From contig NZ_WSZK01000015.1 of NCBI RefSeq assembly GCF_009791395.1, positions 310,001-374,000 on the forward strand: a stretch of 64,000 bases of DNA, read 5' to 3'. Shown here piece by piece: positions 2,579 through 27,846 of the stretch. Source of the stretch: Halomarina oriensis (GTDB lineage Archaea > Halobacteriota > Halobacteria > Halobacteriales > Haloarculaceae). Position 1 is the first letter of the stretch. Every line of letters begins with the position of its first letter. Made by a program: the position numbers and the translations under genes. The notes beneath the pieces are model-generated. The model searched no databases. It was not told the DNA's origin and saw nothing but the letters and a program-made list of their open reading frames with translations.

Positions 2579-2701
2579 GGTCGGCGTGCGTCGTCAACCA
2601 GTGAGTACCCTTCGGTTGACGACGCGTCGGACACCGTCGCCTGCCGACCGGACGAACGTCGGTCGAATACGGGTGAGAGTACGAACTATTCAGGGGGTAG
2701 A

Positions 2702-2710
2702 TTGAAATAC
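2702..2710 (+). promoter_or_regulatory. TATA box of the cmi4-like gene
   Basis: TTGAAATAC lies 28-36 nt before ATG 2738, as expected for a leaderless transcript. An AT-rich patch just upstream (AACTATTCAG) stands out from the GC-rich surroundings. Confidence 0.5.
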
Positions 2711-2737
2711 GTAAGACTCGTTTCGTTTTCACCACTG

Positions 2738-3340
2738 ATGGACGAGAAGACCGCGGAGCTACGCGACATCTTCATCGACGTGACCGACGGGGAGACGGTC
2801 ACCGAGCGCCAGGAGGACGCGCGTGGCTCGCTCACAGAGGACGACGAGCGCATCGACGAGCGCATCGACGACGTCGTCGCCCGGATGCGCGAGCAGTTCG
2901 ACTTCGACACCGACCTCTCGACGGGGACCCTCCGCGAGGTCGCACGGGGCTACCACGACGACGAGGACGACGGCACCATCGCCGAACGAATCGACGTCGA
3001 CGAGGAGACCGTCGTCACCGCCCGCCACGACCTGCACCTGCTGCGTGAGGAGGAGACAGAGGGCCCCTTCGAGCTCTCCCGACTCCGCGAACTGCGCAAC
3101 GACGAGCACGACCGGACCGACGAGGACCTCGCCGCCGAACTCGACACCGACGTCGGGACGCTCCACACCTACAACGCCGTCGTCGACACCCAGAACGAGA
3201 AACGCAGCGTCAACGACCGCTTCGCCGACGAGTTCGCCGAACTGCTGACCGACGCCGACCTGCAGGACCACACCGAGACGGTCAACGACGACGGCCTGGA
3301 GGAGGCGACCGAGGGGATGGAGACGGACGTCTCCTTCTAG
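2738..3340 (+). CDS. Conditioned-medium-induced protein 4 family protein
   Basis: This 200-residue, very acidic soluble protein begins MDEKTAELRDIFIDVTDGET. It resembles the haloarchaeal family annotated as conditioned medium-induced protein 4, first seen in Natrialba as induced at high cell density. The family assignment is from memory of the N-terminal sequence. The middle and C-terminal parts (residues about 75-150) contain two helix-turn-helix-like repeats around DGTIAERIDVDEETV and TDEDLAAELDTDVGTL, so DNA binding is possible. The frame is open further upstream, but the TATA box fixes ATG 2738. A copy of the 3' hairpin element begins 4 nt after the stop. Confidence 0.65.
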   Translation: MDEKTAELRDIFIDVTDGETVTERQEDARGSLTEDDERIDERIDDVVARMREQFDFDTDLSTGTLREVARGYHDDEDDGTIAERIDVDEETVVTARHDLHLLREEETEGPFELSRLRELRNDEHDRTDEDLAAELDTDVGTLHTYNAVVDTQNEKRSVNDRFADEFAELLTDADLQDHTETVNDDGLEEATEGMETDVSF

Positions 3341-3344
3341 TCGA

Positions 3345-3477
3345 CCTTTTATGCACGCGCCGGGTCGCTCCGCGACCCGGCAGTGTAAAAGCTCGAACAA
3401 AAGGATTCCTCGCGGACTCCGCGGTGCTCCGTCCGCTCGTCACCCCGCTCGCTCGTCGCTCCGCGACTCGCTCGCGG
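3345..3477 (+). repeat. 3' hairpin element, copy a (after the cmi4-like gene)
   Basis: Copy a starts 4 nt after a stop codon, on the same strand as the gene. Outer arms CTTTTA (3346-3351) and TAAAAG (3386-3391) enclose a 10-bp GC hairpin: GCCGGGTCGC (3359-3368), loop TCC, GCGACCCGGC (3372-3381). After it comes GCTCGAACAAAAGGATTCC and a GC-rich tail with CTCGTCACCCCGCTC that ends in CTCGCGG. Three other copies occur at 10427-10550, 25537-25670 and 26420-26563. The position suggests a 3'UTR structure or terminator. I know no published name for it. Confidence 0.8.
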
Positions 3478-10426: not shown

Positions 10427-10550
10427 ACCGTGAGCGAGCGGGGTGACGAGTGGACGGAGGTGCGAGAGCACCGAAGAGAACGAAGAATCCTTTTGCTCCA
10501 GCAGTTACCCTGTGGGGCGGCCCTGCCGCCCCACTCGTGGATAGAAGGTG
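10427..10550 (-). repeat. 3' hairpin element, copy b (after cstA)
   Basis: Copy b follows the cstA stop codon almost at once, in the gene's orientation. Conserved TATCCACGA precedes the 10-bp hairpin GTGGGGCGGC, loop AGG, GCCGCCCCAC (10534 down to 10512), followed by AGGGTAACTGCTGGAGC and AAAAGGATTC. The outer CTTTTA/TAAAAG stem seen in the other copies is degraded here (CTTCTA/TAACTG). The tail again contains CTCGTCACCCCGCTCGCTC and ends in CGGT. Confidence 0.78.
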
Positions 10551-10551
10551 G

Positions 10552-12396
10552 TTAGTCGTCGCTCGGTGCCGTGCCGGTGTAGCTGTCTCTGACCCGGCTG
10601 ATGTTCTGATAGCCCATCCACGCGATGGCGATGGCGAGGCCGGCCAGCGTCAGCGCGATGAGACTCTGCATGACCGAGGAGATGAGGACGGCCGTCTCCC
10701 CCGCCGCGAGCGCGTCGAGGGCGGCGGCCGGGGCACGCAGGATGCCGATCCAGAGCAGCGCCGTCAGCGTGACGACGAGCATCAGCGCCATCGGCAGGCC
10801 CGTCGAGAGGAGCTGTTTGGAGTCGTCCCAGTTGGCCAGCCAGAGTGTGGCGGCGAGCAGGGCGAGTGCGGCGAGCGTCTGGTTCGCGCCGCCGAACAGC
10901 GGCCAGAGGCTCGACCACGTCCCGCTACCGACCAGCAGGTACGCGGGCAGACAGAGCAGCAGGCCCGAGGAGGCGTAGCGGTTCGTGGCGAAGCGCTGGG
11001 TCGACGTCTCGGGGACGCCGACGATCTCGTCCATCATGTAGCGACCGAGGCGGACGGCCGTGTCGGTGCTCGTCAGCAGGAAGCTGACGAAGACGAGACC
11101 GACGAACGCGGCGAGCGTCGTCGAACCGAGGGGGATGCCGAGTCCGGAAATCATCGCCGCACCGCCGGCCGGGAAGTTGTTGAGCGCGCCGACGACGCCC
11201 GCGGAGAAGTCGGTGAACCCGATGATGGCGAACGCGCCGACCGCGGTGGTGGCGAGCAGGCCCTCACCGAGCATCGCGCCGTAGCCGATGGAACGGGCGT
11301 CGCTCTCCTTGTTCAGCTGCTTGGCCGTCGTCCCCGAGGACACCAGCGAGTGGAACCCGCTGATGGTCCCGCACGCGATGGTGACGAACAGGAACGGGAA
11401 GATGGGTCCGAGCGGACTCGTGAACCCGAGGAACGCCGGGTACTGCGTCGAGAGTTCCGAGACGGTCGCCGTCTCCCCGGCGACGGTGACGTCGATGGGC
11501 GTGAAGCCGACGACGAGCGCGACGAGTGCGCCCAGCAGCATCGCGCCGACGCCGGTGTAGAGCAGACTCGACGTGAGGAAGTCACGCGGCTGGAGCAGCA
11601 CCCACACCGGCAGGACGCTGGCGACGAAGCCGTAGACGACGACGACGGGCACCCACGCGGCGGTGTTCGCGCCGAACGCGCCCGCGAGCGGGAGCCAACT
11701 CCACGCGTCGGCGGACCCGAGGAGGGTGATGGTCCCCTCGGGGAGACTGCCGGTGTCGACCAGCGCGATGGGGAACAGCGTCCCGACGTAGACGCCGGCG
11801 AAGACGAGGCCGACGAAGACGACGGCCCCGATGGCGAACGGGAGGTTCAACTGGTAGAGGTAGACCCCGAACACCAGCGCCAGCGCGATGTAGATGAGGC
11901 TCGCCGTCGCGGCCGACGGGTAGGCGTTGAAGACGACGCCGACGACCAGCGCGAAGACGGCGATGACGAGGATGATGGTGAGGAAGGCGAACCACAGCAG
12001 CATGTCCTTCCCCCGCTCGCCGACGTACTCACCGATGATGTAGCCGATGGACTTGCCCTCGTGGCGGACGCTGGCCGACAGCGACATGAAGTCGTGGACC
12101 GCGCCGAACAGCGGGTTCCCGATGGCGATCCAGAGGATGGCCGGCAGCCACCCGAAGGCCGCGCCCGCGGTGATGGGCCCCACGATGGGTGCCCCCCCGG
12201 CGATGCTCGAATAGTGATGCCCCAACAGCACCGACCGTTGTGACGGGACGTACTCCTGCCCGTCTTCGTACTTGTGCGCTGGTGTCTCCCGGTCGTCGTC
12301 TAGCTCGACGAACTGAGCCAGATACCGGGAGTATCCGAGGTACCCTACGGTGAACGTGACCAGTGAGAGCACCACCAACACGGCAATTTGTACCAT
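10552..12396 (-). CDS. cstA: Carbon starvation protein CstA family transporter
   Basis: This membrane protein of 614 residues has many hydrophobic segments. Family blocks are seen at GYSRYLAQFVELDDD, LLGHHYSSIAGGAPIVGPITAGAAFGWLPA (in part, about 58-90), IACGTISGFHSLVSSGTTAKQ and FVSFLLTSTDTAVRLGRYM. CstA/BtsT proteins take up pyruvate or peptides with H+ or Na+ and are induced on carbon limitation in bacteria. The haloarchaeal substrate is not known. An unusual nested palindrome lies over its promoter, and 3' element copy b follows its stop. Confidence 0.92.
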   Translation of the reverse strand: MVQIAVLVVLSLVTFTVGYLGYSRYLAQFVELDDDRETPAHKYEDGQEYVPSQRSVLLGHHYSSIAGGAPIVGPITAGAAFGWLPAILWIAIGNPLFGAVHDFMSLSASVRHEGKSIGYIIGEYVGERGKDMLLWFAFLTIILVIAVFALVVGVVFNAYPSAATASLIYIALALVFGVYLYQLNLPFAIGAVVFVGLVFAGVYVGTLFPIALVDTGSLPEGTITLLGSADAWSWLPLAGAFGANTAAWVPVVVVYGFVASVLPVWVLLQPRDFLTSSLLYTGVGAMLLGALVALVVGFTPIDVTVAGETATVSELSTQYPAFLGFTSPLGPIFPFLFVTIACGTISGFHSLVSSGTTAKQLNKESDARSIGYGAMLGEGLLATTAVGAFAIIGFTDFSAGVVGALNNFPAGGAAMISGLGIPLGSTTLAAFVGLVFVSFLLTSTDTAVRLGRYMMDEIVGVPETSTQRFATNRYASSGLLLCLPAYLLVGSGTWSSLWPLFGGANQTLAALALLAATLWLANWDDSKQLLSTGLPMALMLVVTLTALLWIGILRAPAAALDALAAGETAVLISSVMQSLIALTLAGLAIAIAWMGYQNISRVRDSYTGTAPSDD

Positions 12397-25094: not shown

Positions 25095-25141
25095 AGCCGC
25101 AACAGCAACATCTAACAGGGCGGCGGGAGTACGCGGGAGTG

Positions 25142-25531
25142 ATGCCTACAGTCGAATACCTCAACTACGAAGTCCTGGACGACCACGGCTGGTCGATGGA
25201 CGACGACGACCTCTTCGACGAAGCTGCCGACGCCGGCCTCGACGCGGAGGACTACGGCACGCTCGACGTCAACGAGGGCGAGTACATCCTGGAAGCCGCC
25301 GAGGCCCAGGGCTACGACTGGCCGTTCTCGTGTCGCGCCGGCGCGTGTGCGAACTGCGCCGCCATCCTCAAAGAGGGCGGCATCGAGATGGACATGCAGC
25401 AGATCCTCTCCGACGAGGAGGTCGACGACAAGAACGTCCGCCTGACGTGCATCGGCTCACCGACGGCCGACACCGTCAAGATCGTCTACAACGCGAAACA
25501 CCTGGACTACCTCCAGAACCGCGTCATCTAA
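25142..25531 (+). CDS. fdx: 2Fe-2S ferredoxin, halophilic type
   Basis: The 129-residue plant-type ferredoxin has the halophilic N-terminal acidic insertion (about 10-45, [20 protein letters not shown]). The cluster ligands are in [10 protein letters not shown] (about 63-72) and LTCIGS (about 101-106). It is the abundant electron carrier for haloarchaeal 2-oxoacid ferredoxin oxidoreductases. ATG 25142 is used rather than the adjacent GTG because known homologues start [11 protein letters not shown] DtxR-like palindrome lies upstream, and the 3' hairpin element copy c follows 4-5 nt after the stop. Confidence 0.96.
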
Positions 25532-25536
25532 ACCCA

Positions 25537-25670
25537 CCTTTTATCCACGAGTGGGGGCCTGCGGCCCCCACAGGGTAAAAGCTGGACCAAAAGGATTCCT
25601 CGCTCGCTTCACGCTCTTCGAGCGTTCCGCTCGCTCGTCACCCCGCTCACTCGTTACACTCGTTCGCGGT
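25537..25670 (+). repeat. 3' hairpin element, copy c (after fdx)
   Basis: This is the most complete copy. CACCTTTTATCCACGA is followed by a 9-bp hairpin, GTGGGGGCC (25551-25559), loop TGC, GGCCCCCAC (25563-25571). Next come AGGGTAAAAGCTGGACC and AAAAGGATTCCTCG. CTTTTA (25538-25543) and TAAAAG (25576-25581) can pair as an outer stem. The tail has CTCGTCACCCCGCTCACTCG and ends CTCGTTCGCGGT. It lies in the same orientation as fdx, directly after its stop. Confidence 0.85.
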
Positions 25671-26419: not shown

Positions 26420-26563
26420 ACCGCGAACGAGCGCAGCGAGTGAGCGGGCCGATTGAACCCTCGAAAGAGCGAGCGGAGCGAGTGACTGAGGGGGTGATTG
26501 AGTGCTTTTGGTCCAGCTTTTACCCTCCGGGGGGCTTCGCCCCCCGGTCGTGGATAAAAGGTG
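26420..26563 (-). repeat. 3' hairpin element, copy d (after prf1)
   Basis: Copy d begins 20 nt after the prf1 stop, in the gene's orientation. CACCTTTTATCCACGA is followed by a 9-bp hairpin, CCGGGGGGC, loop GAA, GCCCCCCGG (26547 down to 26527). Next come AGGGTAAAAGCTGGACC and AAAAGCAC, where GGATTC of the other copies is lost. The outer CTTTTA/TAAAAG stem is intact. The tail ends in CTCGTTCGCGGT at 26420. It faces copy c across the lipoprotein island. Confidence 0.82.
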
Positions 26564-26583
26564 GTGGGTGAAAGATGGGTGTT

Positions 26584-27846
26584 CTAAATCCCGGTCTCGT
26601 AGCGCAGAATCCCGGCGACCCCACCGAACGCGTTCATCAGCTGTTCGCCCTCCTCGAAGTCCGTGGAGATGAACTTCGTCTCCGAGCCACGCTGGTCGGC
26701 GATGTCCATCAGGTGCTCGATGACGTCCTCGCGTTCGCTCTCTCCGGCGGGGACGGTCTCGGCGCACTCCGAGCAGTCGTGGTCGGGCGTGTTCTTGCGG
26801 TTGTCGATGACCTCGCGCTCCTCGTGGCCGTTCTCGCAGGTGTAGCTGACGACGTCCTGGCGGAGGTCCTCGGAGATGAGCAGGCGGTCGACCGAGCCCA
26901 TGACGAGGTTCTTTCGGGTCGGCTCGAACCCGTAGGTTGCTCGCTCGCCGTCGTGCAGTTCCTTGAAGAACTCGTCCATCTGGGACTTGTCCTTCATGAC
27001 CTCGGTCTCCGCCAGCAGGTCCTCGGCGTTGTCGACGAGTTCCTTCAGCCCCGAGTCGTCGGTGTACGAGACGTCTATCTTCCCCAGCACGATGTCCTGG
27101 AGTTCGTGGTGGAGGTAGCTACCGTCCATGAACTCGTCTTTCGTCGGCGAGGGGCCGCCGACGAGGACGCCGTCCATCTCGTGACGTTTCGGGACCATCA
27201 GGTCGTTGGCCATCCCGGCGACCTTCTGGTAGAAGTTGTCGATGGCCTCCAGACGCAGGCGGGCGAATCGCTGTGCGGACTGGCCACCTTTCCGCTGCTT
27301 GCCGGGGACGAGCGAGGAGGCGGATTTGACGGCCTCGATGCGCTTGCCCTTCAGCCACCCCACCGTCGCCTCGCGGCGGTCGAGGACGACGAGACCGTAG
27401 AGACCCTTGTCGCCGAACATCTCCTCCAGTGGCTCGGTGAGGAACGCCGAGTCACAGTGGTAGCGGAACGACTGAACGGGTTCGGGTGGGTTCTCGAGGA
27501 CGCGCGTGACCATGTCGGTCTGGCCGCCGCCGCTGTCGATGGCCCCCGAGAACAGCACCATCCCGTTGTCCGGCGGCGACTTGTAGTAGCGCAGGCGGTC
27601 TTTGAGCGAGGTGAGGGCGTCCTGCACGGACGTTCGGGTGTCCTTGGACTTGATGTTCGCCGCCTCGCTGTGCTCCTGGGTGACGTGGGCGACGACGTCC
27701 GAGATCATCCGGTCGGGCGGGACGTAGATAGTGACGAGCTGTGTTCCTGATCCCGAGTACTCCTTGAGTTCCTCGATGACCTTCTGGAACTCGTATTTCT
27801 GTCGGTCGGACTGCTCGTCCGCCGAGTCGTCCGCTGGGCTACTCAT
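26584..27846 (-). CDS. prf1: Peptide chain release factor aRF1
   Basis: The 420-residue archaeal class I release factor reads all three stop codons. It has the stop-recognition NIKS motif (64-67) with the YxxCxxxF-like FRYHCDSAF (127-135), and the catalytic GGQ (187-189) in KQRKGGQSAQRF. The C-terminal domain has a cysteine-rich segment, CENGHEER and HDCSECAE, as in other aRF1s. The divergent gene is a MinD homologue. Confidence 0.97.
   Translation of the reverse strand: MSSPADDSADEQSDRQKYEFQKVIEELKEYSGSGTQLVTIYVPPDRMISDVVAHVTQEHSEAANIKSKDTRTSVQDALTSLKDRLRYYKSPPDNGMVLFSGAIDSGGGQTDMVTRVLENPPEPVQSFRYHCDSAFLTEPLEEMFGDKGLYGLVVLDRREATVGWLKGKRIEAVKSASSLVPGKQRKGGQSAQRFARLRLEAIDNFYQKVAGMANDLMVPKRHEMDGVLVGGPSPTKDEFMDGSYLHHELQDIVLGKIDVSYTDDSGLKELVDNAEDLLAETEVMKDKSQMDEFFKELHDGERATYGFEPTRKNLVMGSVDRLLISEDLRQDVVSYTCENGHEEREVIDNRKNTPDHDCSECAETVPAGESEREDVIEHLMDIADQRGSETKFISTDFEEGEQLMNAFGGVAGILRYETGI

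Follow-up and report, generated by a model that had tools for sequence, protein, structure and literature searches.

Integron attC sites are folded sites just past a stop codon, oriented with the gene and bearing a variable terminal hairpin; they occur in cassette arrays and have core sites of the GTTRRRY type. The REP/BIME elements and inverted uptake-sequence terminators (DUS/USS) of bacteria are dispersed intergenic palindromes with homogenised copies, some of which double as 3'-end structures.

Termination in archaea is currently described as dependent on a U-tract, with no need of a hairpin. The U-tracts of archaeal terminators comprise four to seven U, and the published terminators require no hairpin (PMC8716108). 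In Haloferax, T-stretches and some hairpins are found near transcript ends and the median first 3' UTR is 97 nt; in reporters, T stretches terminated at 95% and the one hairpin tested at 59% (PMC7237163).

The DNA analysed here is a stretch of 64,000 nucleotides from Halomarina oriensis (contig NZ_WSZK01000015.1, positions 310,001 to 374,000), the whole of which is called the window. It had been predicted to contain four copies of a structured element, each right after the stop codon of an unrelated gene (the original prediction).

Results

The four copies lie where they had been placed, each with a tail, past a stop codon and in the orientation of the gene, the gaps being about 1, 0, 2 and 19 nt for copies 1 to 4; their hairpin arms agree with those first quoted. 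The core of copy 1 (3342..3408, + strand) consists of CGACC-TTTT (3342-3350), arms at 3359-3368 and 3372-3381, AAAAGCTCG (3387-3395), AAC, AAAA (3399-3402) and GGATTC, with CGA pairing to TCG, and its GC-rich tail (3409..3477, +) contains a second hairpin, GCGGAC...GTCCGC, and TCACCCCGCTCGCTCG. The 3' part of its host gene occupies 2600..3340 (+). The C-terminus of this gene, EGMETDV-F, is also seen before a copy in another family (L222), and the gene there is likely to be its counterpart because this motif is common to both.

Copy 2 (core 10485..10551, − strand) follows cstA (10552..12396, −), encoding a carbon starvation protein, and reads CCACC-TTCT, hairpin GTGGGGCGGC/GCCGCCCCAC, AACTGCTGG, AGC, AAAA, GGATTC; the outer stem is weakest in this copy. 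Copy 3 (core 25534..25598, +) follows fdx, the 2Fe-2S ferredoxin gene (25139..25531, +), with CCACC-TTTT at 25534-25542, hairpin GTGGGGGCC/GGCCCCCAC, AAAAGCTGG at 25577-25585, ACC, AAAA at 25589-25592 and GGATTC; CCA pairs with TGG, and the tail (25599..25670, +) includes TCACCCCGCTC. Copy 4 (core 26500..26564, −; tail 26420..26499, −) follows prf1, the gene for the peptide chain release factor aRF1 (26584..27846, −), with CCACC-TTTT, hairpin CCGGGGGGC/GCCCCCCGG, AAAAGCTGG, ACC, AAAA and GCACTC. The gene names proposed for the last three hosts were borne out by Pfam (CstA, Fer2 and eRF1 domains); the gene before copy 1 gave no Pfam match. An outer pairing of CTTTTA with TAAAAG, proposed for three copies, is present in copies 1, 3 and 4 and incomplete in copy 2. 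The tails at 3409-3477, 25599-25670 and 26420-26499 have in common GCTCGCTTCGCTCGC-type repeats with TCACCCCGCTCGCTCG, and a second hairpin inside.

The conserved 24-mer GTAAAAGCTNGANCAAAAGGATTC, with up to 3 mismatches allowed, matched the window four times and 100 dinucleotide shuffles not at all. The same pattern was found at 11 places in the source genome (4.07 Mb, 50 contigs) and nowhere in the controls; all 11 run with the gene and lie a few nt past its stop codon. The covariance model made from these places (R1) found 21 places at E <0.001 (best 5.9e-22); the source Halomarina genome has at least 21 copies, all copy numbers being lower bounds. The exact 16-mer AAAAGCTSGAYCAAAA occurred in 150 of 391 Halobacteria genomes, with one control match, and an unbiased pattern of the two core arms in 152 of the 391, spread over 50 of 86 genera, with 6 control matches. 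Copies after stop codons occur in other haloarchaeal genomes, a point on which the original prediction had been staked, and no transposon end was met in passing among the family matches. Many haloarchaeal genomes are without the element, as are most genes of any genome. Lineages have their own versions: some Halomarina, for instance, have GGATTC past the core, and other genera have forms with T5/A5/A5.

An ancient presence outside Halobacteria was considered and rejected: outside the class, a phylum-wide sample gave a handful of chance-like single matches without hairpins, several of which break the pairing described below. A known mobile or viral origin was likewise set aside, as viral contigs and phages held no copies and plasmids a single weak match, in Natronorubrum bangense. 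At the Rfam gathering score there were no matches in the window and only tRNAs in 10 carrier loci, and searches of the open-access literature by topic and by core sequence found no description of the element.

The consensus of about 130 copies is: stop codon, 3-8 nt, C[C/G]A, [C/G]C, T4-7, a variable GC hairpin, A4-6 G, C, T[G/C]G, ANC, A4-6 and a GC-rich tail. Two of its features had escaped the first reading. One is that the flank triple C[C/G]A pairs with the linker triple T[G/C]G across a usual C-C mismatch, as CCA/TGG in 74 copies, CGA/TCG in 49 and rarely as GCA/TGC or GAA/TTC. The middle bases are C-G in 80 copies and G-C in 49, against one mismatch (G/G). Since the pattern CSACCTTTTN{20,50}AAAAGCTSG leaves both middle bases free, it is an independent test of this pairing, and every haloarchaeal match among those listed for it obeyed the rule. 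One exception is known: at G055:2037666 the left arm has CCA and the right arm TCG. This copy faces another at a distance of 270 bp (G055:C1:2037666-2037986), and the exception looks like a recombination chimera of the two subtypes.

The other feature is a second A-tract. Of 46 copies selected irrespective of this tract, 44 continue with [AG]NCAAA, and the A-run starts exactly 3 nt past the linker in 122 of 129 copies. The tract lengths correlate (T with A1, rho 0.95; T with A2, rho 0.64, p 5e-16 uncorrected for descent). The copy after prf1 in G277 has CCTTCTTTC on its T side and GAAAGAAGG in its second tract, which match perfectly over 9 bp, and some Halomarina cores fold preferentially with the second A-tract.

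The covariation claimed for the hairpin holds. On a model-fitted alignment (A3), in which 91.5% of cells are paired, the covariation score was 0.441, against 0.135 after shuffling and at most 0.034 after sliding, the alignment being fitted to the structure; in an alignment of ungapped stitched arms (A4) there were 29 two-sided changes against 9.8 in shuffles. The hairpin interiors differ in all of 130 copies (130/130), and the hairpins are more stable than shuffled sequences (median z −3.8). G-U wobbles in the outer stem are more frequent in the sense than in the antisense direction (46 against 22 distinct contexts), modestly supporting the sense RNA as the candidate working form; the same test on the inner arms gave no strand preference (GT 23, AC 17). 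Folding energy was tried as a test of strand and discarded as uninformative: the antisense folds slightly better, which is attributed to the conserved C-C mismatch becoming G-G.

A coding stop lies within 25 nt on the 5' side, on the same strand, in 71 of 128 copies; the corresponding count for the opposite end and strand is 12. With a limit of 40 nt the figure is 72 of 131, against 6.8% at random positions, and the distances peak at 3-8 nt. By simple gene calling, about 40% of copies have no assigned coding stop or tRNA. tRNA genes stand directly before some copies (L061, L082, L084, L097, L163). The next gene is convergent in a ratio of 71:27, against 186:144 in the control, a modest effect given crude gene calling. 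Convergent neighbours often have one copy each (G039, G053, G343), as is expected if each copy serves its own gene. A simple bidirectional terminator is weakened as an explanation both by these separate copies and by the strong orientation (71 against 12). At L044, L047, L090 and L177, in several genera, the element is preceded by a conserved, non-coding-looking stretch ending GGTCGTTAGTGTTCCGGGCGTACATTACGA; it has no Rfam match and is possibly an unannotated RNA. At L024 and L059 the element is preceded by the common sequence CCTCGGGTCTCGCCATAATTATGTCAG...GGGCCTATTTG.

Between the source genome and H. rubra, copies are kept at fdx, cstA, prf1, the genes for ATP synthase D (atpD), biotin carrier, a NifU-like and an enoyl-CoA hydratase-like protein, and others. 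At fdx, cstA, atpD, biotin carrier and L003 the triple has switched between CCA/TGG and CGA/TCG, on both sides each time, and at L035 to GAA/TTC, again on both sides. These two-sided switches are evidence for pairing, and some may be whole-copy replacements, since the cores of orthologs (identity 0.83) are no closer than those of paralogs (0.82), whereas the flanking coding sequences are (0.89 against 0.72). The copies have therefore either been replaced or homogenised by recombination, or the consensus alone is constrained. In different families the element is found again after prf1, PhoU, thermosome and other genes; G006 and G005 lack it after prf1, with no clean empty site there.

Within a genome the copies share homology over about 150 bp and group into subfamilies particular to each lineage. 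Tandem direct repeats of 2-3 copies, 90-190 bp apart, were seen at G187:C1:787062-787325, G200:C1:521488-521720, G291:C1:2894782-2895000 and G053:C1:562370-562505. Some Halomarina copies (L022, L025, L026, L027, L057) have a two-hairpin module, ATCACC-hairpin-TTAGCAG-hairpin-CGAC, between the linker and the second A-tract, doubled in L057; it is present in one species and missing in the other, in opposite directions at two genes (L026/L142, L011/L143). L030, L032, L034 and L031 are of a long variant with AAAAGCTCTCCCAG ... CTGGGAG around one or two hairpins, followed by GGGACCAAAAGG.

Discussion

The original prediction of a conserved 3'UTR RNA is upheld as far as a structured element at gene 3' ends is concerned, by covariation, post-stop position, orientation, class-wide spread and recurrence at orthologs; its role remains putative. 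On balance, each copy is probably the 3'-end-forming (terminator) hairpin of the gene just upstream. A T-tract length of 4-7 falls in the range of archaeal U-tracts, which argues for this reading, as do the tRNA hosts, since mRNA and tRNA genes share a need for termination. It is also favoured by the post-stop position and orientation, the covarying structure, the two-sided switches at orthologs, the separate copies of convergent neighbours and the termination seen in Haloferax reporters with T stretches (95%) and with one hairpin (59%). RNA polymerase would slow first at the T-tract and a second time at the rA:dT stretch (ANCAAAA); the nascent hairpin, clamped by CCA/TGG, would meanwhile fold right behind the polymerase, and this folding would release the transcript or expose it to FttA/aCPSF1. 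Once polymerase is at the second A-tract, ANCAAAA would make up the RNA-DNA hybrid and the clamp would lie close behind, a geometry like that of an intrinsic terminator with A for U. The transcript would end either in the T-tract, making the 3' UTR about 10-15 nt long, or past the second A-tract, at about 75-85 nt. Against a terminator, the T-tract would be enough by current archaeal models, leaving the conserved hairpin and second A-tract unexplained. Also weighing against it are the lack of a U-tract past the hairpin in the sense direction, the roughly 40% of copies with no assigned stop or tRNA, and the many genomes and genes that have no copy.

The mobile origin raised as an alternative in the original prediction was partly right, in that copies within a genome are homologous, fall into lineage-specific subfamilies and look homogenised. 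The strongest rival, although an unlikely one, is a REP/MITE-like dispersed DNA element with insertion targeted to gene ends, whose palindrome would serve its own mobilisation and which would require no host function. The homology over about 150 bp, the ortholog cores no closer than paralog cores (0.83 and 0.82) beside flanking coding sequences that are (0.89 against 0.72), the tandem duplicates (G187, G200, G291, G053), the extra hairpin modules at different orthologs in two species (L026/L142, L011/L143) and the lack of the element after prf1 in G006 and G005 would all fit such an element. It is harder to reconcile with copies retained after prf1, PhoU and thermosome from family to family, always gene-oriented and with strictly maintained base pairs; nor was any target duplication or mobilising gene seen among the copies examined, and viral contigs and phages are empty, with one weak match in plasmids. 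Dispersed, REP-like spread is in any case likely, and compatible with the terminator reading: copies would spread and homogenise among genes by recombination or short-range insertion, so that the element persists and its sequence turns over.

Ranked next, and also unlikely, is a 3'-UTR stability or processing element, in which transcription would end further downstream and the hairpin, with a docked A-rich 3' tail, would block 3'-to-5' exonucleases or mark a processing site. The very stable hairpins (median z −3.8), the sense bias of outer-stem wobbles (46 against 22 contexts) and hosts in usually well-expressed families (ATP synthase D, L40e, thermosome) are consistent with this, and the 97-nt median first 3' UTR of Haloferax could include the element (PMC7237163). 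The T-tract before the hairpin speaks against it. So do the tRNA genes that precede copies; mature tRNA 3' ends are made by RNase Z. The least probable reading is a signal at the DNA level, a palindromic binding or uptake site or a cruciform tolerated after genes. Inner arms without wobble preference (GT 23, AC 17), tracts that give T-runs on both strands and the mild enrichment of convergent neighbours (71:27 against 186:144) would suit it, but the variable arms speak against sequence-specific binding of the hairpin, and the strong gene orientation (71 against 12) argues against a symmetric signal.

A further, rather doubtful idea concerns the second A-tract itself. Because the T, A1 and A2 lengths co-vary, the 3-nt spacing is constant and the tracts of G277 match, both A-tracts (usually AAAAG each) might pair with CTTTT in a three-strand device, an RNA 3'-end switch or a triple helix aided by the high salt content of the haloarchaeal cytoplasm. 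The length correlation could also stem from shared descent within subfamilies.

If the terminator reading is true, structured 3'-end signals that have the T-tract in the 5' arm would be in use throughout a large group of archaea. The copies would provide definite sites for genetic tests in haloarchaea that can be cultured, add a new RNA family to genome annotation and show how a dispersed repeat can become a standard part of gene ends.

Compared with known systems, the element shares with integron attC a folded site after the stop codon, gene orientation and a variable terminal hairpin. It differs in occurring as single dispersed copies in both orientations, without cassette arrays, and its arms, CSACCTTTT/AAAAGCTSG, are unlike the attC core sites, which places it outside that class. 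With REP/BIME and DUS/USS it has multiple homologous dispersed palindromic copies in common, but its sequences are different, it keeps a fixed offset of 3-8 nt from the stop codon and no REP-type transposase was met in passing. Bacterial intrinsic (Rho-independent) terminators likewise have a GC hairpin after the gene, in its orientation, with compensatory evolution of the arms. The order in the element is inverted, the T-tract coming before the hairpin and the A-tracts after; a U-run immediately 3' of the hairpin is absent, [AG]NCAAA standing there in 44 of 46 unbiased copies, and since the sense direction is without a U-tract past the hairpin it is not an intrinsic terminator of the bacterial type. 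Archaeal U-tract terminators, whether intrinsic or dependent on FttA/aCPSF1, share with it 4-7 T directly past genes and tRNAs. In the element, however, this tract forms the base of the 5' arm in a long hairpin that covaries; a matching A-tract comes next and a second one 3 nt on. The element departs from the description in which no hairpin is required, since its hairpin is conserved with covariation. As far as could be tested, the element is undescribed in its arrangement, clamp covariation, second A-tract and class-wide use at gene ends, while its T-tract and hairpin are known in kind.
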